Positions 6,608-62,506 of a DNA stretch of 64,000 bases are shown here, piece after piece; positions within the stretch are counted from its first letter, which is position 1; every line of letters starts with the position of its first letter. The DNA lies in the NCBI RefSeq assembly GCF_004342285.1, contig NZ_SMCV01000008.1, positions 1-64,000 on the forward strand. The letters run 5' to 3'. Both the position numbers and the translations under genes were made by a program. The notes beneath the pieces were generated by a model. It made no database searches and was not told the origin of the DNA. It saw only the letters and a program-made list of their open reading frames with translations. The DNA is from Klebsiella sp. BIGb0138 (GTDB lineage Bacteria > Pseudomonadota > Gammaproteobacteria > Enterobacterales > Enterobacteriaceae).

Positions 6608-7519
6608 TCAATAATTCCACTTCGGCCTGGCGACCGTATTCTTCTTCAGTAAATTACGAAACTCTTTCAGATACGGCTCGTTGCTGCGCCCGCGTCGGCA
6701 AATCGCCGAGAACGGCGACTGGAAGCCGAACTCGTTGGGCAGCAGCACCCGCAGCCGGTTCTCCTTGATCCACGGCCAGGCATAATGTTCAGGCAGGTAG
6801 CCGATATATTTCCCCGACAGGATCAGCAGCAGCTGCGCATCAACGGTCTCAACGGTAGCACTGCCTTTACTAAAGCCGCGCCGGCGCAGATCGCTGGTAT
6901 TCCAGTAGCTGCGGGTCACCAGCGGACACTGGCTGATCTGCTCTTTATCAAGCTGGCGGCTGAAGAACATCGGGTGAAGGTCGCTGCAGTACAGCCAGTG
7001 CTGCTCGCGATAGAGCGGCTCGCTGATGATGTTATGGACCTGGGAGTTATAGCTGCCGATAGCCAAATCAATATGGTTGTTCAGCACGCCGTTAAGCTGC
7101 TCCGCCGGGGTGCGGATAATCAGTTTGATATGCACATTGGGAAACTTATCGCTGAAGCTGCGCAGCACCACCGGCAGCGACAGCGCGGTTTCGGTTTCAA
7201 TCGAGTCAAGCGTCGAGATGCAAATCGTGCCGCTGTGCTCGCCCTTCAGCAGCGCCGACTGGCGTTCCAGCTCGTTGAGCTCGCTCAATACCCGAATCGC
7301 CTGCTGTAAAAACTGCTGTCCTTTCTCGGTCAGCGCAAAACCGCCGCGCCCGCGCTGGCACAGGCTAAACCCCAGCTGCCCCTCCAGCTGAGACATCGCA
7401 TTACTGATCGCCGACACCGAAATCCCCAGCTCCTGCTGGGCTCTGCCATAGCTTTCCAGGCGGGCCACCGCCTCAAAAACCTGCAGCTGTCGAATGTTGA
7501 GACTGGCGTCGTTGAGCAT
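6608..7519 (-). CDS. LysR-family regulator of the divergent catabolic unit
   Basis: 303-residue LysR-type regulator. The winged helix-turn-helix occupies about residues 6-65 (IRQLQVFEAVARLESYGRAQ, then LGISVSAISNAMSQLEGQLG). The effector domain begins near residue 95 with SGTICISTLDSIETE. It is transcribed away from the ureohydrolase gene across a 112-base gap that contains a clean dyad (7522-7545) just above its own start, the usual LysR arrangement. It is therefore the likely activator of the 7632-14575 unit, with the imported substrate or an early product as co-inducer (inference). Confidence 0.9.
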   Translation of the reverse strand: MLNDASLNIRQLQVFEAVARLESYGRAQQELGISVSAISNAMSQLEGQLGFSLCQRGRGGFALTEKGQQFLQQAIRVLSELNELERQSALLKGEHSGTICISTLDSIETETALSLPVVLRSFSDKFPNVHIKLIIRTPAEQLNGVLNNHIDLAIGSYNSQVHNIISEPLYREQHWLYCSDLHPMFFSRQLDKEQISQCPLVTRSYWNTSDLRRRGFSKGSATVETVDAQLLLILSGKYIGYLPEHYAWPWIKENRLRVLLPNEFGFQSPFSAICRRGRSNEPYLKEFRNLLKKNTVARPKWNY

Positions 7520-7631
7520 GATTAGTTCACCAATAAATGAACTAAGTATTTACGGCAGACGATTTAAAGTCCAGCACATCTTTCGCACTATCTTCCTGTC
7601 GAGCATTTGTGTGTCAGATTCAGGAGCTGAA
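7520..7631. promoter_or_regulatory. divergent LysR control region with dyad
   Basis: Contains arms TTAGTTCA (7522-7529) and TGAACTAA (7538-7545), a perfect 8-base inverted repeat with an 8-base gap that fits the T-N11-A spacing of LysR sites. It lies directly upstream of the regulator start codon. The ribosome site for the ureohydrolase is CAGGAG at 7621-7626. Confidence 0.55.
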
Positions 7632-8582
7632 ATGGATAACGTCTTTCATCAACCGCAGGGTGGCAACGAGATGCCACGTTTCGGCGGCCGCGCAACGATG
7701 ATGCGCCTGCCTTTTATTGAAGATTTACAGGGACTTGATGCGGCATTCGTCGGCATCCCTCTGGATATCGGCACGTCGCAACGTTCCGGCACCCGTTACG
7801 GACCACGCTATATCCGCAGCGAATCGGTGATGATTCGTCCCTATAACATGGCGACCGGCGCGGCGCCTTTTGAATCCCTGTCGGTGGCGGACATCGGCGA
7901 TGTGCCGATCAATACCTACAGCCTGCTCAAATCGGTGCAGATCATCGAGGATTACTACACTGGTTTAAATAGTTTCCCCCTCATCCCGCTGACCCTCGGG
8001 GGTGACCACACCATCACCCTGCCGATTCTGCGCGCCCTGACCAAAAAACATGGCCCGGTTGGACTGATTCATGTTGATGCCCACACCGACACCAACGACG
8101 AGATGTTCGGCGAGAAAATCGCCCACGGCACCACCTTCCGCCGCGCCGTCGAAGAGGGCCTGCTGGATCTCAAACGCGTCGTGCAGATTGGTCAGCGCGC
8201 GCAGGGCTATGCCGCCGGCGACTTCCAGTGGGGCGTCGACCAGGGCTTTCGTCTGGTACAGGCGGAGCAGTGCTGGCACCGTTCGCTGGCTCCGTTAATG
8301 GCCGAAGTCCGCCAGCAGATGGGCGAGGGGCCGGTCTATCTCAGCTTCGATATCGACAGCCTCGACCCCATCTGGGCCCCCGGCACCGGCACGCCGGAAG
8401 TCGGCGGCCTGACCTCCATTCAGGCGCTGGAAATCGTTCGCGGCTGTCGCGGCCTGAACCTGATCGGCTGCGACCTGGTTGAGGTCTCCCCGCCCTATGA
8501 CGTCAGTGGCAACACCTCACAGCTGGCGGCCAACCTGCTGTATGAAATGCTCTGCGTCCTGCCCGGCGTGAAATATCCATAG
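7632..8582 (+). CDS. ureohydrolase (agmatinase/guanidinobutyrase family)
   Basis: Arginase-fold dinuclear metal hydrolase of 316 residues that removes urea from a guanidino compound. All metal ligands are visible: H126 in LGGDHT, D149/H151/D153 in HVDAHTDT, and D240/D242 in SFDIDSLDP; GTGTPEVGGL and DLVEVSPPYD follow. The sequence style is closer to guanidinobutyrase/guanidinopropionase than to E. coli SpeB. It is first in a unit with an oxygenase and an amino-acid importer, so it probably acts on an imported or oxidised guanidino compound rather than on agmatine. Start ATG 7632 follows CAGGAG; an in-frame extension upstream crosses the LysR operator and was rejected. Confidence 0.88.
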   Translation: MDNVFHQPQGGNEMPRFGGRATMMRLPFIEDLQGLDAAFVGIPLDIGTSQRSGTRYGPRYIRSESVMIRPYNMATGAAPFESLSVADIGDVPINTYSLLKSVQIIEDYYTGLNSFPLIPLTLGGDHTITLPILRALTKKHGPVGLIHVDAHTDTNDEMFGEKIAHGTTFRRAVEEGLLDLKRVVQIGQRAQGYAAGDFQWGVDQGFRLVQAEQCWHRSLAPLMAEVRQQMGEGPVYLSFDIDSLDPIWAPGTGTPEVGGLTSIQALEIVRGCRGLNLIGCDLVEVSPPYDVSGNTSQLAANLLYEMLCVLPGVKYP

Positions 8583-8592
8583 GGGATTCGGA

Positions 8593-9465
8593 ATGCAGCC
8601 AACCATGCAACTCAAGGTCTTTCGCACGCTGTGGGGCGTCACCACTCCGTGGCAACAAACCCTCAGCGAGCTGAAAAGCGTCGGCTGCTGCGGCATTGAG
8701 GCGCGCGTGCCGCTAAGCGCCGACGAACAGCAGACGCTGGCCCGACGCCTGCAGGAGTCCGCGCTGGAGTATATCGCCATCGTCTTCAGCGGCGGCGGCG
8801 TGATTCCGGCGCAGGCCGAAACGCCGCAGCAGCATCTTGAACGTTTGAAAAGCCGCTTTGAAGACGCAAAGGCGCTGAATCCGCGCTTTGTCAATCTGCT
8901 GGCCGGCAACGACCGCTGGCCGCTGGCGCAGCAGGTGGACTTTCTCGGCCGGGCCCACGAGCTGGCCGCCGCCTGCGGACTGACCTGCAGCTTTGAAACC
9001 CACCGCGCCACTTCGCTGTACAGCCCGTGGCTAACCCTCGAGATTATCCGGCAGCTGCCGCAGCTGCGCTTTACCGCCGACATCAGCCACTGGATCGTGG
9101 TGAGCGAGCGTCTGCTGGATGACCCCTGCGATGATTTCAGCGCCTTTATCGACCGCGTGCACCACGTTCAGGCCCGCGCCGGTTATGACCAGGGGCCGCA
9201 GGTACCTCATCCGGCGGCGCCGGAATATCACGCCGCGCTGCAGTTCCAGCAGCGCTTCTGGCAGCAAATCTGGCAGTCGCAACGTCGGCGCGGGTATCAG
9301 CAGACCACGTTGACGCCCGAGTTTGGCCCCGATGGCTATCTGCACCACCTGCCGTTTACCAATGTCCCGGTGGCCGATCTGTGGTCGCTGAATGCGTGGA
9401 TGGCGGAACAGGAACAGCAGCATTTCGCCGAGTTTTTATCGCTAACCGAAAAGGATCTGTCGTAA
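8593..9465 (+). CDS. TIM-barrel protein of the xylose-isomerase-like superfamily
   Basis: 290-residue protein of the sugar-phosphate isomerase/epimerase (AP endonuclease 2-like) fold. Candidate metal-binding positions are glutamate in SFETHRATS, Asp-His in TADISHW, His in VHHVQAR and glutamate in LTPEFGPDGY, so the barrel is likely catalytic. Members isomerise, epimerise or dehydrate small polar substrates, and the true reaction cannot be read from sequence. It follows the ureohydrolase by 10 bases and its stop overlaps the oxygenase start by one base, so the three are co-translated. ATG 8605 is an alternative start. Confidence 0.8.
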   Translation: MQPTMQLKVFRTLWGVTTPWQQTLSELKSVGCCGIEARVPLSADEQQTLARRLQESALEYIAIVFSGGGVIPAQAETPQQHLERLKSRFEDAKALNPRFVNLLAGNDRWPLAQQVDFLGRAHELAAACGLTCSFETHRATSLYSPWLTLEIIRQLPQLRFTADISHWIVVSERLLDDPCDDFSAFIDRVHHVQARAGYDQGPQVPHPAAPEYHAALQFQQRFWQQIWQSQRRRGYQQTTLTPEFGPDGYLHHLPFTNVPVADLWSLNAWMAEQEQQHFAEFLSLTEKDLS

Positions 9466-10541
9466 TGAGCGTCGCAAAAAGTTCTTTCACTGAATTACCG
9501 ACCATCGATATCAGCGATCTTGCCAGCGACAGTCTGGCAAAACGCCAGGCCGTCGCCGACGCCATCGGCAAAGCGGCGCGTGAAGTCGGTTTTTTCTACA
9601 TCACCGGCCACGGCATTGCCCCTGAGCTGATCGCCGGGATCCGCACGGCGGCCAAACAGCTCTTCGCCCTGCCGATGGATCAAAAAATGCAGTACTACAT
9701 CGGCCACTCCCGCAGCCATAAAGGCTATGTCCCGGAAGGGGAAGAGATTTACGGCTCCGGCAAACCGGACCACAAAGAAGCGTTTGATATTGGCTTCCAG
9801 GCCGCGGACGACCACCCGTTTGTGCTGGCCGGCACGCCGCTGATTGGCGCCAATGAGTGGCCGGAACTGCCCGAGTTTCAGTCCCGGGTGCTGGCCTACT
9901 ATGACGCGGTATTCACCCTCGGCCATCGCCTGTTTGACGCCTTCGCCCTCGCGCTTGGCCTGCCGGAGGGCTACTTCAAGGCGATGGTGACCTGCCCGCC
10001 GTCGAAGCTGCGTCTGATCCACTATCCCTTTGACGCCAGCGCCGAAGATGTTCCCGGTATTGGTGCGCACACCGATTACGAGTGCTTCACCCTGCTGCTC
10101 GCCGACCAGCCCGGCCTTGAGGTGCTGAATGAAGAGAGCGCCTGGATAGACGCGCCGCCGCTGAACAACGCCGCCGGCGAAGAGGCTTTCGTGATCAATA
10201 TCGGCGACATGCTGGAAGTGTTAAGCGCTGGCACATTTGTTGCTACAGCACACCGTGTCCGCAAGGTGCCGCAGGAACGCTACTCCTTCCCGCTGTTTTT
10301 CGCCTGCGATTATCACACCCTGATCCGGCCGTTACCCAACTTTTTAGCCGCCGGAGAAGCCAGCGAATATCAGGAACTCAGCATTGGCGAGCATATGTGG
10401 AGCCAGGCGTTGCAGACCTATCGCTACCTGCGCGAGAAGGTCACCAAAGGCGAGCTGCAGCTCCCGGAGCGCGCCCGCGGCACCAACACCTTTGGTCATC
10501 TGAAAAAACAAGCCCAGCAAAAAACCGTTAATAACCCGTGA
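9465..10541 (+). CDS. 2-oxoglutarate/Fe(II)-dependent oxygenase (isopenicillin N synthase-like family)
   Basis: 358-residue non-haem iron oxygenase. The N-terminal DIOX domain (LPTIDISDLA... VGFFYITGHGI) is followed by the jelly-roll with the facial triad H202, D204 (GAHTDYECFTLL) and H263 (ATAHRVRKV). R272 is at the usual 2-oxoglutarate contact, in RYSFP. Relatives include plant guanidino-amino-acid hydroxylases and the bacterial ethylene-forming enzyme, which oxidises arginine. Beside a ureohydrolase and an amino-acid importer, hydroxylation of a guanidino amino acid or amine is the most natural reading (inference). Start ATG 9465 overlaps the preceding stop in TAATG. Confidence 0.87.
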   Translation: MSVAKSSFTELPTIDISDLASDSLAKRQAVADAIGKAAREVGFFYITGHGIAPELIAGIRTAAKQLFALPMDQKMQYYIGHSRSHKGYVPEGEEIYGSGKPDHKEAFDIGFQAADDHPFVLAGTPLIGANEWPELPEFQSRVLAYYDAVFTLGHRLFDAFALALGLPEGYFKAMVTCPPSKLRLIHYPFDASAEDVPGIGAHTDYECFTLLLADQPGLEVLNEESAWIDAPPLNNAAGEEAFVINIGDMLEVLSAGTFVATAHRVRKVPQERYSFPLFFACDYHTLIRPLPNFLAAGEASEYQELSIGEHMWSQALQTYRYLREKVTKGELQLPERARGTNTFGHLKKQAQQKTVNNP

Positions 10542-10550
10542 GGATACATG

Positions 10551-11354
10551 ATGAAAAAAACGCTCAATAAGCTCTCGCGCCGCGTGGCTACGGGCATCGC
10601 CATCGCCGCTTGCTTTTCACCGCTGACCCAGGCTGCCGAACTGCTGACGGATGGCGTATTTAAAGTCGGGATGGAGGTCACCTATCCGCCGTTTGAATCT
10701 TACGACAGCAATAACAACATCGTCGGCCTCGACCCGGAATTCGCCGCGCTGATTGCCGAGCAGCTGAAAGCGAAACCGCAGCTGATCGATACCAAATTCA
10801 CCAGCCTGATCTTAGGGATTGGCAAGAAATATGACGCGGTAATCTCCGGGATGTATATCACGCCGGAGCGCCTTAAACAGGCCGATGCGGTCCCTTACGC
10901 CTTATCCGGCGCGTCGATTATCGCCCTGAAGAACAGCGACATTCAGCCGAAAACGGAAGACCAGTTATGCGGCGTCAAGGTTGGCCTGCAGCAGGGTACC
11001 AGCTGGGTCGCCAGCCTGAAGAATCACTCCGATGAGTACTGCCTGAAAAACGGGAAGCCGGCCATCAGCATCCAGGAGTACCCCACCGCGCCGGAAGTTT
11101 CGCAGGCTCTGCTGTCGAAAAACATTAACGCGCAGCTGGAGATCGCTCCGGCGGCGCAAATTATTGTCGAGAAGAGCCGCGGGCGGCTGGCGATTAGCTC
11201 CACGCGGCTGGTCTATCCATTACCGCTGGGGATTTATGTCGCCAAAGGCAATAGCGAACTGGTGAATGCCATTAAATCGACATTAGCCACCTTAAAAACC
11301 AATGGCAAATATGACGCCATCATCAAGAAATACAATTTAGAACGCATCGATTAA
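10551..11354 (+). CDS. periplasmic polar amino-acid-type binding protein
   Basis: Solute-binding protein of the family-3 (His/Lys/Arg/Orn, cystine) type, 267 residues. The Sec signal peptide has a basic start (KKTLNKLSRR) and a hydrophobic core, and probably ends in TQAAE near residue 26. The mature part has KVGMEVTYPPFESYD and GLDPEFAALIAEQL, a typical ligand-binding lobe, and ends with the C-terminal helix LKTNGKYDAIIKKYNL. ATG 10551 is preferred over 10548 because AGGA then lies six bases upstream. It precedes a fused permease-ATPase, giving a complete importer. A cationic or guanidino ligand is inferred from the neighbouring enzymes. Confidence 0.88.
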   Translation: MKKTLNKLSRRVATGIAIAACFSPLTQAAELLTDGVFKVGMEVTYPPFESYDSNNNIVGLDPEFAALIAEQLKAKPQLIDTKFTSLILGIGKKYDAVISGMYITPERLKQADAVPYALSGASIIALKNSDIQPKTEDQLCGVKVGLQQGTSWVASLKNHSDEYCLKNGKPAISIQEYPTAPEVSQALLSKNINAQLEIAPAAQIIVEKSRGRLAISSTRLVYPLPLGIYVAKGNSELVNAIKSTLATLKTNGKYDAIIKKYNLERID

Positions 11355-11387
11355 ATACGATCACATTAATGCGCAACAGGAGTCGGT

Positions 11388-12908
11388 ATGGAGTTCGATT
11401 GGGGATACTTTTTCTCATTATTTAGCGTTGGGGCATTCTGGCAGGCGTGCGTCACCGTGATCGTCGTCAGTTCATTGTCGTGGTTGATTGGCCTGGTATT
11501 CGGTTTTCTTTTAGCCTGCGCGAAACTCTCCGGCCCGCGCTGGCTGAAAGTTCCCGTCGAACTCTATATTTGGTTTTTCCGCAGCGTGCCGTTAATGGTG
11601 CTGCTGGTATTTGTCTATAACCTACCGCAATTATTTCCGGTGACCCAGCCGCTGCTCGGCATTCCGTTTATTGCCGGCCTGGTCTCGATGACCGTCACCG
11701 AAGCGGCCTACATGGCGGAAATTCATCGCGGCGGGTTAATTTCGGTGGCGAAAGGGCAAAGCGAAGCCGGCCATGCATTAAGCCTCAGCTTTATCGGCAT
11801 TCAGCGCCTGATTATTATCCCGCAGGCGTTTCGCATCTCGCTCCCGACGATGATTAATGAATATATCACCATCATTAAACTCAGCTCGATCCTGTCGGTG
11901 ATCTCGTTGCCGGAACTGCTGTTAACCGGTCAGCGGCTGTACGCGCAGAACTTCCTGGTGATGGAGACTCTGCTGGCGGTGGCGGTCTACTACGTGATGG
12001 TGGTGACGGTGTTTACCTGGCTGTTCCGGGCGCTGGAAAACCTGCTGGATATTCAGCAAAAGCGCCCGCAAACCTTCAATGACGCTGAATGTGAAGCCTT
12101 ACGCCAGAGCCTGAAAACGCCGCGGCACACGGCGAAGGCCGAGCCCGCCAGCGGTAACCCGCCGGCGCTCGATCTGCGGGCGATCGAAAAGTCCTGGGGC
12201 CAGCATCACGTACTGAAAGGTATCGATCTGAAGGTCGAAAACGGCGAGGTGATCAGCATTATCGGCCCATCGGGATCCGGTAAAACCACCCTGATCCGCA
12301 CCATCAACGCCCTGGAAAGCATCGATGGCGGGGAAATTATTCTCTACGGCGAAGATTACCTGAAAGGCGCGGCGATTGTGGATAAACGGCAGATGCGCGC
12401 CGGCGTGCGCCGTATCGGCATGGTTTTCCAGGGCTTCAACCTGTTTCCTCACCGCACGGTGCTCGACAACGTCATGCTCGCCCCGCTGTATCACAAGCTG
12501 GTCGAGCGCAGCGTGGCAAAAGAGCAGGCCCTCTATCTGCTGGACCGCGTCGGCCTGCTGGCGCACGCCGAAAAATACCCGTGGCAACTCTCCGGCGGCC
12601 AGCAGCAGCGTGTCGCCATCGCCCGTGCGCTGGCCTTAAAACCGGACATCATGCTGTTTGACGAACCCACCTCAGCGCTGGATCCGGAGCTGGTTGGCGA
12701 AGTGCTGAAGGTGATCCAGTCTCTCGCCCGCGAAGGGATGACGATGCTGATCGTGACCCATGAGATGGACTTCGCGTTATCCATTTCCGACCGGGTGGTG
12801 ATGATGGAAAACGGCGTGGTGGTGAGCGATGTGCATCCACAGCGCATACGCGACAACGCGAGCGATCCGGCTCTTACCCGCATCCGTGAATTTATGGGAG
12901 TGCAATAA
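11388..12908 (+). CDS. fused amino-acid ABC transporter: permease plus ATPase in one chain
   Basis: 506 residues joining two subunits that are normally separate. Residues about 1-225 form a HisMQ-type permease (five hydrophobic segments and the EAA loop near [22 protein letters not shown]). A linker rich in Lys/Pro/Ala follows (about 235-262). The ATPase (about 263-506) has Walker [11 protein letters not shown]-loop [11 protein letters not shown], signature [15 protein letters not shown], Walker [15 protein letters not shown] and the switch histidine in VTHEMDF. It would act as a homodimer, so both pore halves are identical. It lies 33 bases after the binding-protein gene; the next start follows the stop directly. 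Confidence 0.92.
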
Positions 12909-13637
12909 ATGGCAACTGAACGTGAACTGCGTCAGGACCTGGCCGCCGCCTATCGTCTGGCGGCGCTGTTTGGCTGGGAAGATACGCTGTATACCCACTT
13001 TTCCGTGCGTCTGCCGGGCGACGGTGAACCGCGGTTTCTGATCAACCCGTTCGGCATGATGTTCGATGAAGTCACCGCCAGCAATCTGATCGTCGTCGAC
13101 ATGCAGGGCAAGGTGGTGGAAGGCAACGCCCCGGCGAACTCCGCCGGCTTTACCATCCACAGCGCGGTACATATGGCGCGGGAGGATGCCCACTGCGTCA
13201 TCCACACCCATACCCTGCCGGGAATGGCGGTCGCCGCCTGTCAGGATGGTCTGCTGCAGCTTAACCAGATAAGCACCGAGTTTTATCAGCGCGTCGGCTA
13301 TCACCCGTATGAGGGCGTGGCGTTTGACCTCGACGAACGCGAGCGTATCCAACGCTCGCTCGGCGATAACATCGCCATGATTTTGCAAAGCCATGGCCTG
13401 CTATCGGTCGGGCGCACCGTCGCCGACGCCTTCTACATCATGTACTACCTTAACCGCGCCTGCGAAATTCAGATGGCCGCCGCCCAGCTCGCCCCGCTCA
13501 GCCCGATTCACACCATTCCGGCGCACCTGAGCCAGCACGCCTGCGAACAGCTGATGGGCGTGGAGCACGAGCGCCAGCAGGTCTGGCAGGCGTGGCTGCG
13601 CCGCCTTGACCGTCTCGACACGTCTTACCAGGAGTGA
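12909..13637 (+). CDS. class II aldolase/adducin-family protein
   Basis: 242-residue zinc-type aldolase fold. Metal-binding histidines are visible in VIHTHTLPGMAVA and a third in LQSHGLLSVG; the N-terminal phosphate/carboxylate-binding region includes INPFGMMFDEVTASNL. Relatives cleave or decarboxylate hydroxy-keto acids or fuculose-type phosphates. The usual catalytic glutamate between the metal histidines is not obvious, so lyase activity is not guaranteed. It starts at the first codon after the transporter stop and is co-translated with the dehydrogenase downstream. A role in breaking the carbon skeleton left after nitrogen removal is inference. Confidence 0.85.
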   Translation: MATERELRQDLAAAYRLAALFGWEDTLYTHFSVRLPGDGEPRFLINPFGMMFDEVTASNLIVVDMQGKVVEGNAPANSAGFTIHSAVHMAREDAHCVIHTHTLPGMAVAACQDGLLQLNQISTEFYQRVGYHPYEGVAFDLDERERIQRSLGDNIAMILQSHGLLSVGRTVADAFYIMYYLNRACEIQMAAAQLAPLSPIHTIPAHLSQHACEQLMGVEHERQQVWQAWLRRLDRLDTSYQE

Positions 13638-13642
13638 TGCCT

Positions 13643-14575
13643 ATGCCGAACCTGACTATCGTTGTCGATTGCAACGACCTGAACTACGCCCGCGAGATTT
13701 GCGACGCGCTGCATCTTTTCCCCGACGTGATGGCGGTATTGCCCGACCATCCGGCGGCGCGGCGCGCGGAATACGCCAGCTGCTGGTTCCCCGACCCGCA
13801 GCTGCTGACCCGCTCGCCGGGGCTAAAACTGATCCAGGCCGCCTCTGCCGGGGTCGATCACCTGCCGGATGCGGTGTTCGCCAGCCCGGTTCCGCTGTGC
13901 CGGGTGGTGGATGAAGATTTTCGTCACGGGATGTTCGAGTATGCGCTGTGGGGCGTGCTGTGGTTTCAGCGCCATTTTGACCGCGCGCTGGCGCATCAGC
14001 GCGAGCGGGTGTGGAAAACTTACCCGCAGCGGGCCGCCGCCGATTTTCGCGTCGGCGTGATGGGGCTCGGTGAAATTGGCGGTTACATTGCCACCCGCCT
14101 TGCCGGACTGGGGTATCACGTCTCCGGCTGGGCGCGGAGCGAAAAACAGCTCGCGGGCGTCCGCTGCTACCACGGCGATGCGCAGGCCGATGATTTCTTC
14201 GCTGAGCTGGATGCGCTGATCAACGTGCTGCCGCTGACCGAGCAGACCCGCGGCATCCTCGCGCAGCCGTTGCTCGACCGGCTCCCCGCCGGGGCGGTGC
14301 TGATCAACTGCGGGCGCGGTGAGCATATGGTGAATCACGATGTGCTGCAGGCGCTGGATAGCGGGCGGCTGGCGGGCGCGGTGCTCGATGTCTTCCCCGT
14401 TGAACCGCTGCCGGACGCCGACCCGCTGTGGTCGCATCCGCAGGTGGTGATCACCCCGCACATGGCTTCCATTGCCCCTGCGGAAGTGATCGCTCGCCAG
14501 CTGCTGGAAAATATCCAGCGCCAGCGCCACGCGCTGCCGCTGAAAAATCTGGTCGATAAACAGATCGGCTATTAA
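13643..14575 (+). CDS. D-2-hydroxyacid dehydrogenase (GhrA-like)
   Basis: 310-residue NAD(P)-dependent 2-hydroxyacid dehydrogenase. The Rossmann dinucleotide motif is VGVMGLGEIGGYIATRL (about 135-152), followed by the catalytic-domain blocks NVLPLTEQTRGIL, LINCGRGEHM (catalytic Arg) and DVFPVEPLP (Glu), with the catalytic His in TPHMAS. Shortness and the WARSEKQ second strand resemble glyoxylate/hydroxypyruvate reductase GhrA. ATG 13643 fits AGGAG eight bases upstream; ATG 13637 overlaps the aldolase stop but is too close to that site. It is last in the LysR-linked unit and would reduce or oxidise a 2-keto/2-hydroxy acid product. Confidence 0.88.
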   Translation: MPNLTIVVDCNDLNYAREICDALHLFPDVMAVLPDHPAARRAEYASCWFPDPQLLTRSPGLKLIQAASAGVDHLPDAVFASPVPLCRVVDEDFRHGMFEYALWGVLWFQRHFDRALAHQRERVWKTYPQRAAADFRVGVMGLGEIGGYIATRLAGLGYHVSGWARSEKQLAGVRCYHGDAQADDFFAELDALINVLPLTEQTRGILAQPLLDRLPAGAVLINCGRGEHMVNHDVLQALDSGRLAGAVLDVFPVEPLPDADPLWSHPQVVITPHMASIAPAEVIARQLLENIQRQRHALPLKNLVDKQIGY

Positions 14576-14659: not shown

Positions 14660-15454
14660 ATGAACATTGATTTATCGGGGAAAGTTGCGCTGGTTACCGC
14701 CTCCACGGCGGGCATTGGGTTTGCTATCGCCAAAGGGCTGGCGGCCAGCGGCGCGGAGGTGATCATTAACGGACGCAGCGAGCGTAGCGTCAATGAAGCC
14801 ATCGCCCGGCTACAAAATGAGGTACCGGGCGCCAGGCCGCGCCCGGCCATTGCCGACCTCAGCAGTGGCGAAGGGGTGAATCAGCTGCTGCAAAGCCTCA
14901 ACGGCGTCGATATTCTGGTTAACAACGCCGGGATTTATGGTCCGCAGGACTTCTACGCCACCGATGACGCCACGTGGGAAAACTACTGGCAGACCAACGT
15001 GATGTCCGGGGTACGTTTATCGCGGGCGCTGCTGCCGGCGATGGTACAAAAAGGCTGGGGCCGGGTGGTGTTTATCTCCTCCGAATCGGCACGTAATATC
15101 CCGGCGGACATGATCCACTACGGGGTGACCAAAACCGCCCAGCTGTCGCTGGCGCGCGGGCTGGCGAAATATGTGGCCGGCAGCGGCGTCACGGTGAACA
15201 GCGTGCTGCCGGGGCCGACGATTTCCGATGGTTTTGCCGAAATGATGAAAGAAGAGGTGGCGAAAACCGGTAAACCGCTGGACCAACTCGCCAAAGAGTT
15301 TGTCATGACCCATCGCCCCAGCTCGGTTATCCAGCGTGCGGCATCGGTTGAGGAAGTCGCCAATATGGTGGTGTATGTCTGCTCAACTCAGGCTTCCGCC
15401 ACCTCTGGCGCAGCCTTGCGCGTCGATGGCGGCGTGGTGGACGATATTGTCTGA
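14660..15454 (+). CDS. short-chain dehydrogenase/reductase
   Basis: 264-residue SDR of the classical type. The cofactor motif TASTAGIGFAIAKGL is near the N-terminus (TxxxGIG form), followed by NNAGIYGPQDF, the catalytic Ser/Tyr/Lys in ISSESARNIPADMIHYGVTK and the C-terminal RVDGGVVDDIV. The start ATG 14660 follows AAGG. It lies 84 bases after the dehydrogenase, on the same strand, and ends in a strong terminator; it may have its own promoter, so membership of the previous unit is uncertain. Substrate unknown. Confidence 0.88.
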   Translation: MNIDLSGKVALVTASTAGIGFAIAKGLAASGAEVIINGRSERSVNEAIARLQNEVPGARPRPAIADLSSGEGVNQLLQSLNGVDILVNNAGIYGPQDFYATDDATWENYWQTNVMSGVRLSRALLPAMVQKGWGRVVFISSESARNIPADMIHYGVTKTAQLSLARGLAKYVAGSGVTVNSVLPGPTISDGFAEMMKEEVAKTGKPLDQLAKEFVMTHRPSSVIQRAASVEEVANMVVYVCSTQASATSGAALRVDGGVVDDIV

Positions 15455-57972: not shown

Positions 57973-58047
57973 GAAAGACGCGCATTTATTATCATCATCA
58001 TCCCTGAATCAGAGATGAAAGTTTGGCCACATTGATGTGGCCTTTTT
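57973..58047 (+). ncRNA. micA: MicA small RNA
   Basis: Starts GAAAGACGCGCATTTATTAT, close to E. coli MicA (GAAAGACGCGCATTTGTTAT), and lies between luxS and gshA as there. A first stem (CCCTGAATCAGAGATG) is followed by the terminator GGCCAC-ATTGAT-GTGGCC and a T run. MicA is made in response to envelope stress and, with Hfq, represses ompA and other outer-membrane protein mRNAs. The 5' seed GAAAGACGCGCAU is unchanged, so the ompA pairing should hold. The terminator loop and stem differ from E. coli. Confidence 0.92.
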
Positions 58048-61532: not shown

Positions 61533-61609
61533 TGGTGCATCCGGGAGGATTCGAACCTCCGACCGCTCGGTTCGTAGCCGAGTACTCTATCCAGCTGAGC
61601 TACGGATGC
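61533..61609 (-). tRNA. tRNA-Arg (ACG), copy 1
   Basis: 77-base tRNA read on the minus strand: GCATCCGTAGCTCAGCTGGA..., anticodon ACG in GGCTACGAACC, acceptor stem closed by GGATGC, and encoded CCA. Identical to E. coli argQ/argV. A34 would be modified to inosine to read CGU, CGC and CGA. Confidence 0.97.
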
Positions 61610-61794
61610 ATCGGGGAACTGCTTTACGACTGATTCCAGCGTTACCGCTGTTAACCCAAAGAAGATAGTGCATCCGGGAGGATGACTCACTTCCCTCGCC
61701 CGTGGGCCGTTGCTGACGCAACGTTATCCTCCCTGGCGCTGACGATTATCTCGCAGACCATGCAACAACAGTCGTCCTGTTATCGCGGAGAAGA

Positions 61795-61871
61795 TGGTGC
61801 ATCCGGGAGGATTCGAACCTCCGACCGCTCGGTTCGTAGCCGAGTACTCTATCCAGCTGAGCTACGGATGC
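61795..61871 (-). tRNA. tRNA-Arg (ACG), copy 2
   Basis: Second of four identical tRNA-Arg genes, with encoded CCA. It lies 262 bases from copy 1 and is part of the same transcript from the serV promoter. Confidence 0.97.
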
Positions 61872-62058
61872 ATCGGGGAACTGCTTTACGACTGATTTCA
61901 GCGTTACCGCTGTTATCGCGGAGAAGATGGTGCATCCGGGAGGACGACTCACTTCCCTCACCCTGTGGCGCCGTTGCTTACACAACGTCATCCTCCCAGG
62001 TACTGGCGATTATCTCGCAGACCATGCAACAACAGTCGTACTGTTATCTCAGGAAAGA

Positions 62059-62135
62059 TGGTGCATCCGGGAGGATTCGAACCTCCGACCGCTCGGTTCG
62101 TAGCCGAGTACTCTATCCAGCTGAGCTACGGATGC
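62059..62135 (-). tRNA. tRNA-Arg (ACG), copy 3
   Basis: Third identical copy with encoded CCA, 264 bases from copy 2. Confidence 0.97.
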
Positions 62136-62332
62136 ATCAGGGAGAACTTGCTTTACTACGCGTCAGTGCCACAACTAACACTTGCCACACTGAGTAAGAT
62201 GGTGCATCCGGGAGGATGACTCGGCTTTCGCCTCGCCCTGTGGGCCGTTGCTTATGCAACGTTATCCTTCCTGGTGCCGGCGGTTATTACCGCTACCCCA
62301 CCACCTCTTCATTGCTGAAGAAATGGAAAATA

Positions 62333-62409
62333 TGGTGCATCCGGGAGGATTCGAACCTCCGACCGCTCGGTTCGTAGCCGAGTACTCTATCCAGCTGAGC
62401 TACGGATGC
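62333..62409 (-). tRNA. tRNA-Arg (ACG), copy 4
   Basis: Fourth identical copy with encoded CCA, 274 bases from copy 3 and four bases after the tRNA-Ser gene. Being first after serV it is processed together with it. Confidence 0.97.
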
Positions 62410-62413
62410 AAAA

Positions 62414-62506
62414 TGGCGGTGAGGCGGGGATTCGAACCCCGGATGCAGCTTTTGACCGCATACTCCCTTAGCAGGGGAGCGCCTTCAGCCTCTCGGCCAC
62501 CTCACC
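62414..62506 (-). tRNA. serV: tRNA-Ser (GCT)
   Basis: 93-base class II tRNA with a long variable arm, read on the minus strand: GGTGAGGTGGCCGAGAGGCT..., anticodon GCT in CTGCTAAGG, T arm GGTTCGAATCC and encoded CCA. It reads AGU and AGC codons. It is the first gene of the cluster, as E. coli serV. Confidence 0.96.

Follow-up and report, generated by a model that had tools for sequence, protein, structure and literature searches.

Seven same-strand genes occupy positions 7632-14575 of a 64,000-nucleotide stretch of Klebsiella sp. BIGb0138 (contig NZ_SMCV01000008.1, positions 1 to 64,000; hereafter the window) and diverge from a gene encoding a LysR-type regulator. A preliminary description, made from the sequence alone, had read these genes as one unit for the catabolism of a guanidino-type compound, and all of its open reading frames are present, with Pfam assignments that match every family call made there. 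In operon order, the spacers are +10 or +22 (depending on the start chosen for the second gene), -1, +6, +33, 0 and -4 bases. We describe the unit as a probable modular operon for guanidino-acid catabolism, akin to yet distinct from the methylguanidine hydroxylase system MgdH/MgdL, with a candidate new lyase. Its features are as follows:

6608..7519, minus strand: LysR-type regulator (PF00126 and PF03466), divergent from the operon
7520..7631, no strand: intergenic regulatory region; ribosome-binding site AGGAG of the ureohydrolase at 7622-7626, read from the sequence
7632..8582, plus strand: ureohydrolase, predicted 4-guanidinobutyrase (GbuA type); ATG at 7632 downstream of AGGAG
8605..9465 (alternative start 8593), plus strand: xylose-isomerase-like TIM barrel (hereafter TIM), proposed to cleave an N-(hydroxyalkyl)guanidino hemiaminal
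9465..10541, plus strand: 2-oxoglutarate (2OG)/Fe(II) oxygenase, MgdH relative, proposed N-alkylguanidino-acid hydroxylase
10005..10007, plus strand: codon of oxygenase Lys181
10548..11354, plus strand: family 3 periplasmic binding protein (PF00497)
11388..12908, plus strand: fused ATP-binding cassette (ABC) permease-ATPase, polar amino acid type (PF00528 and PF00005)
12909..13637, plus strand: class II aldolase-fold protein, proposed to decarboxylate a 2-hydroxy acid oxidatively in the manner of TqaM/NovR (PF00596; PRK07044 above cut-off)
13634..14575, plus strand: GhrA-like 2-hydroxyacid dehydrogenase, proposed 2-ketoarginine/argininate dehydrogenase (PF02826; GhrA model at 199 bits, under its cut-off of 403)
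14660..15454, plus strand: short-chain dehydrogenase (PF00106)

The ureohydrolase start was set at 7632, the mechanically called reading frame from 7494 being too long.

The search for the same gene set in other genomes, which the preliminary description had proposed, yielded 85 loci of the window's type (the 80 closest relatives among the matches listed, plus five further loci), a set that leans toward near kin and in which L019 and L152 are apparently one record. Presence was scored by identity thresholds (at least 44% for LysR and at least 45% for the aldolase-fold gene; a ureohydrolase match at 50% in L081 was below threshold and went uncounted). TIM, the oxygenase, the binding protein and the permease-ATPase co-occur in 83 of the 85 loci, and because these four genes recur jointly the gene set is not a chance grouping. 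Taken singly, TIM is present in 84 loci and the binding protein and permease-ATPase in 83 each, whereas the ureohydrolase and the aldolase-fold gene are each present in 38, LysR in 37 and the GhrA-like gene in 30. The operon is therefore modular, with a near-constant core (import, TIM and oxygenase) and an optional tail (ureohydrolase, aldolase-fold and GhrA-like genes); the single set of seven genes recognized earlier survives as to its core, but its remaining enzymes are optional. The window oxygenase is 97% identical to its Raoultella relative, and the operon was absent from all E. coli genome records searched by megablast. Two Acinetobacter oxygenases (L016 and L017; 82-84% identity) nest within Klebsiella/Raoultella with 100/100 support, in loci with a rearranged gene order and a different 2-hydroxyacid dehydrogenase, and these copies were likely acquired by horizontal transfer. 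Among open-licence papers, most of them judged by their listing entry, we found no description of this gene set.

The closest characterised relative that we found for the oxygenase is MgdH (52.9% identity over 346 residues), which, according to Sinn et al. (2025, PMC12508155), hydroxylates methylguanidine and works with the hemiaminal lyase MgdL. MgdH was identified through published primers: the mgdH forward primer matched one (G307) of 82 genomes in the genus of G050, all four mgdH/mgdL primers match G307 exactly, and that locus has guanidine-I (Gd-I) and guanidine-II (Gd-II) riboswitches, as published for Vreelandella boliviensis (PMC12508155). The window oxygenase has predicted iron ligands H202, D204 and H263 and, by motif, a 2OG-binding R272, and this His/Asp/His plus Arg set is common to both proteins. 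The kinship to arginine-type hydroxylases suggested by the preliminary description did not emerge: we saw no special closeness to arginine hydroxylases, the ethylene-forming enzyme (EFE) aligns at only 57-62 bits, and the best PDB match by sequence, 9ovh, is a reconstructed ancestral EFE and no natural homologue. Plant homoarginine-6-hydroxylases (2-ODD-C23) count, with EFE, among the nearest described systems, and we know of no ureohydrolase partner for either. In the tree, oxygenases from 24 window-type loci with TIM group with that of L043 into a set of 25 rows (support 100/100) from which the MgdH rows are excluded, so that the window oxygenases are not one clade with MgdH; L127 and L128 are long branches of uncertain placement. 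Twelve alignment positions distinguish the two types, and two of them alter charge. Position 181 is Lys in all 81 window-type oxygenases but Gln in all eight MgdH-type oxygenases and L128, and Asp214, present in 78 of 81, is Thr in the same eight and in L128. Lys181 is on strand 180-187 of the structure model, two residues from the conserved Arg183, and probably lies close to the active site. Tandem pairs of MgdH-type oxygenases occur at L125, L193 and L194 (genomes G032, G882 and G765, one genus).

The two oxygenase types also keep different partners. At MgdH-type loci, an MgdL-family gene is present in 17 of 17 and TIM in none (five of the 17 viewed over 4 kb only), whereas window-type loci have TIM in 84 of 85 and the MgdL family in none; these counts leave out eleven more distant oxygenases (L119, L165-L172, L191 and L192) and others more distant still. 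L128 is mixed: its oxygenase is MgdH-like and its binding protein is of the NMT1 type found at MgdH loci, yet it has TIM. MgdL and TIM gave no BLAST match to each other at E <= 1e-3; MgdL is modelled as a beta-barrel in PMC12508155, and the window protein has a TIM-barrel fold matching sugar epimerases, isomerases and IolE. TIM has 2,373 relatives at E <= 1e-20, not all necessarily of one function, and those listed bear such names as sugar phosphate isomerase/epimerase, xylose isomerase and TIM barrel protein. Two proteins of 310-324 residues without a Pfam family, which follow MgdH-type oxygenases (L124:10090-11061 and L126:10392-11321), look like long, distant MgdL relatives.

TIM cannot be the obligate partner of the 2OG oxygenase alone, since six of 369 genomes hold it without that oxygenase. 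In five of these six loci a membrane FA_desaturase-family protein is encoded no more than 3 kb away (the remaining contig has only 3,983 bases), two of the six are within guanidine carboxylase operons, and tblastn found no aldolase-fold gene in any of them. The FA_desaturase-family protein may represent another kind of alkylguanidine oxygenase. The stretches in which TIM relatives lie near it are as follows:

L145:9444-11324
L146:9813-12775
L148:1786-5394
L149:7970-10639
L150, from 9584

Among such guanidine-type loci, L127, L149 and L150 repeatedly show genes of the creatininase family and genes resembling type III glutamine synthetase.

This genomic complementarity is the basis on which we infer a hemiaminal-lyase role for TIM. 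Oxygenase and TIM together would form a putative oxidative N-dealkylase whose hemiaminal lyase is of a new type and whose substrate is an N-alkylated (in the simplest case N-methylated) guanidino acid. We regard as rather doubtful the bolder proposal that TIM represents a second class of hemiaminal lyase, dependent on metal and acting on N-(hydroxyalkyl)guanidines, whose partner is a 2OG oxygenase in some cases and a membrane FA_desaturase-family oxygenase in others, and that the operon demethylates products of arginine methylation to feed 4-guanidinobutyrate. With MgdH/MgdL of V. boliviensis, as described by Sinn et al. (2025, PMC12508155), the operon has in common the oxygenase, a second small enzyme and an ABC importer; it differs in having TIM instead of an MgdL homologue, an SBP3 amino-acid-type importer, a LysR regulator with no riboswitch found, Lys181 where MgdH-type oxygenases have Gln, and a guanidinobutyrase in place of guanidine carboxylase.

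The ureohydrolase is predicted to be a 4-guanidinobutyrase. It is identical to P. aeruginosa guanidinobutyrase 3nio at 240 of 313 query residues (77%), which scores 549 bits, as against 317 for guanidinopropionase 3nip and at most 207 for PDB agmatinases, although the agmatinase equivalog TIGR01230 is also above cut-off (195 vs 174 bits). The metal-ligand motifs GGDH, DAHTD and FDID are present, and the segment EMFGEKIAHG retains Met where GpuA has Tyr, which we take to be the site that separates GbuA from GpuA specificity. Formimidoglutamate, named at the outset as the substrate that would speak against a guanidino pathway, finds no match at the level of sequence, the formimidoylglutamase (HutG) model scoring 107 bits vs a cut-off of 229. 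In Psychromonas and Vibrio (L024-L026) the ureohydrolase is replaced by a DDAH/arginine-deiminase-family protein and a hydantoinase/carbamoylase (allantoate-amidohydrolase)-family amidase, which would be an alternative means of dismantling the guanidino group. The guanidinobutyrase-like ureohydrolase, this replacement and the MgdH kinship of the oxygenase all uphold a guanidino-type substrate. Two adjacent ureohydrolase genes are found within the cluster at L058, L063, L076 and L081. No link between A. baylyi and guanidinobutyrate was found in print.

Aldol cleavage, a step of the scheme in the preliminary description, is not supported by the class II aldolase-fold protein. Gly80, His99, His101 and His162 are present in 37 of 37 family members, and the FucA of the same genome has at the place of Gly80 a Glu that we take to be catalytic (in references L199 and L204, of four genome references, this Glu was read from the sequences and not from the alignment); of the FucA-type signature, the three His are thus kept and the Glu is missing. 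The protein also scores nearer TqaM (103 bits), NovR (80) and adducin (163 and 117) than FucA (43-46), with 4xxf at 105; its top match, 3ocr (209), is a structure of unknown function that, like adducin and 4xxf, scores above TqaM and NovR. Three His without the Glu would suit a TqaM/NovR-like enzyme.

The distribution of the gene points to a role shared with a decarboxylase. Ureohydrolase or deiminase loci have an aldolase-fold gene or a 5-guanidino-2-oxopentanoate decarboxylase in 41 of 42 cases, as against 7 of the 43 others. The decarboxylase or a relative occurs in ten of the 85 loci (864 bits in L027, vs a cut-off of 500), none of which has an aldolase-fold gene at the 45% threshold (L062 has a weaker, 41% match some kb further on). 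The tail of the P. asturiensis-like loci L027, L036, L037 and L062 comprises ureohydrolase, a purine-type permease, decarboxylase and aldehyde dehydrogenase; L054, L060 and L065 pair ureohydrolase with the decarboxylase; and in L084, L130 and L131, which lack ureohydrolase, the decarboxylase is upstream of the core on the opposite strand. In Pseudomonas, 4-guanidinobutyrate is used through GbuA/GbuR, and arginine enters by the AruH/AruI transaminase route. The window operon resembles these systems in its guanidinobutyrase, its divergent LysR gene and the AruI-type decarboxylase of ten of the 85 loci, but the window's genome has no AruI above cut-off (best 365 bits, under 500), having aldolase-fold and GhrA-like genes instead, and adds an oxygenase, TIM and an importer. 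Because decarboxylase and aldehyde dehydrogenase convert 2-ketoarginine to 4-guanidinobutyrate, the GhrA-like and aldolase-fold proteins may carry out the equivalent conversion. By analogy with TqaM, a non-haem iron oxidative decarboxylase, and with NovR/CloR, non-haem iron enzymes for which PMC13111500 describes oxidative decarboxylation, the GhrA-like protein would reduce the keto acid to argininate and the aldolase-fold protein would then decarboxylate it oxidatively, its use of iron and oxygen being putative.

The importer narrows the likely substrate. The carboxylate-binding Arg of the binding protein is kept in 79 of 79 sequences, while Ile replaces the usual alpha-amino-binding Asp in 78 of 79 and the preceding Glu is present in 78 of 79 (of the two reference sequences, LAO is gapped at that site; in PDB alignments the Ile column holds the Asp of AncQR). 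Taken with Lys181, these features suggest a guanidino compound that bears a carboxylate and may lack a free, standard alpha-amino group. Candidates are the keto, hydroxy or amino acids derived from methylarginine: 2-keto or 2-hydroxy acids of arginine that carry a methyl group would suit every gene, and methylarginines themselves may also serve.

We thus propose that the operon imports an N-alkylated, most simply N-methylated, guanidino acid and degrades it through oxygenase/TIM dealkylation and 4-guanidinobutyrate, a tentative reading to which we give somewhat less than an even chance. The gene families, the layout of the operon, the mutually exclusive partners and the kinship to GbuA and MgdH are read from sequence; the substrate, each reaction and the chemistry of TIM and of the step to 4-guanidinobutyrate are proposed. 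Uptake would fall to the family 3 binding protein and the fused ABC permease-ATPase, and the oxygenase would hydroxylate the carbon attached to the guanidino nitrogen, as MgdH does on methylguanidine. The hemiaminal so formed decays slowly, and TIM would split it, the task of MgdL in the MgdH system, to give the unsubstituted guanidino acid and an aldehyde, which for a methyl group would be formaldehyde. At the level of 2-keto- or 2-hydroxy-5-guanidinovalerate, the GhrA-like and TqaM/NovR-like proteins would yield 4-guanidinobutyrate, for which some Pseudomonas would use 5-guanidino-2-oxopentanoate decarboxylase, partly with aldehyde dehydrogenase, and guanidinobutyrase would finally produce urea and gamma-aminobutyrate (GABA). 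Of the two products anticipated earlier, urea (with GABA, from 4-guanidinobutyrate) is accordingly the likelier and free guanidine the less likely.

Several observations weigh against this proposal. The 85 loci are mutually related, so that their counts are not independent, and we found in the literature no assay of any member of the oxygenase clade. L043 has an oxygenase and an aldolase-fold gene without TIM, and the eleven more distant oxygenases (40-47% identity to MgdH) lack both MgdL and TIM within the 4 kb viewed. The fold of TIM is that of sugar epimerases and isomerases, and we know of no hemiaminal lyase with a TIM-barrel fold. Aldehyde dehydrogenase lies beside the decarboxylase in only four of the ten loci, the conserved Glu of the binding protein may yet serve as a ligand for an amino group, and profile searches recognised no formaldehyde-handling gene among the protein families of the window. 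In PMC12508155, MgdH shows no oxygen consumption with N-monomethylarginine (NMMA) or asymmetric dimethylarginine (ADMA). A formaldehyde dehydrogenase considered near L066 was rejected, the alcohol dehydrogenase there being below the cut-off of every listed model.

An unlikely alternative is that the oxygenase acts on the chain carbon that carries the guanidino group, namely C5 in arginine, C6 in homoarginine or C4 in 4-guanidinobutyrate, and that TIM then releases free guanidine and a semialdehyde, the ureohydrolase serving a parallel 4-guanidinobutyrate route. Free guanidine could also be used by this organism, because its genome has a guanidine-I riboswitch followed 4.3 kb downstream by a guanidine-carboxylase-like gene (59% identity; G000:C10:133858-141839). 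However, an adjacent guanidino-acid hydrolase or deiminase would be pointless after loss of guanidine, EFE is far more distant from the oxygenase than MgdH is, and the 85 window-type loci contain no convincing guanidine carboxylase (a single 41% match, L077) vs five of seven MgdH-type loci. Nor did Rfam searches find any riboswitch in the window at the gathering threshold or a guanidine riboswitch in seven relatives scanned, which is weak evidence given that, of seven MgdH-type loci scanned, only L123, L126 and L134 have a riboswitch and L124, L125, L127 and L128 do not.

We consider it improbable that TIM is an isomerase or epimerase (hydroxypyruvate-isomerase or OtnI-like) of a 2-keto acid hydroxylated on the chain beside the keto group, with the aldolase-fold protein then decarboxylating or cleaving the product. 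The fold of TIM does match those of epimerases, isomerases and IolE, and OtnI/OtnC offer a parallel pairing, but TIM is also found with an MgdH-like oxygenase in L128 and, among six loci where tblastn detected no aldolase-fold gene, in the neighbourhood of guanidine carboxylase genes or of an unrelated oxygenase, and 47 of the 84 TIM-bearing window-type loci lack that gene. Ranking after this is the removal or opening of a larger N-substituent (carboxymethyl, carboxyethyl or opine-like) by the oxygenase, with the GhrA-like protein reducing the freed glyoxylate or pyruvate. Membership in the GhrA-like family and a binding protein that keeps the carboxylate Arg without the standard amino-binding Asp would agree with it, yet it leaves unexplained both the aldolase-fold gene and the fact that this gene pairs with the ureohydrolase or deiminase and not with the oxygenase. 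That same pairing, together with the 47 of 85 oxygenase loci that lack the gene and Gly in place of the aldolase Glu in 37 of 37, makes it very unlikely that the GhrA-like and aldolase-fold proteins serve to capture the formaldehyde set free, by aldol addition to a 2-oxo acid and subsequent reduction, although the class II aldolase fold and its three metal-binding His are retained.

Beyond the operon, the short-chain dehydrogenase gene at 14660-15454 is the next gene in nine of twelve Klebsiella/Raoultella-type loci (L005-L015 and L018) and may be an eighth gene of that version. Elsewhere, the window contains MicA small RNA (57973-58046) and five consecutive tRNA genes, four of equal score (61536-62506).

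To our knowledge, MgdL, reported in 2025, is the only described enzyme that speeds the breakdown of N-(hydroxymethyl)guanidine. If TIM proves to be a widespread second lyase, it would show that dedicated lyases are often required for guanidino hemiaminals. PMC12508155 calls the role of methylated guanidine species underappreciated, and dealkylation of the kind proposed for the window operon would suggest what becomes of methylated guanidino acids in environmental bacteria, in a form open to testing. Genes now annotated as 'sugar phosphate isomerase', 'aldolase' and '2OG oxygenase' would then merge into a single route of nitrogen salvage.

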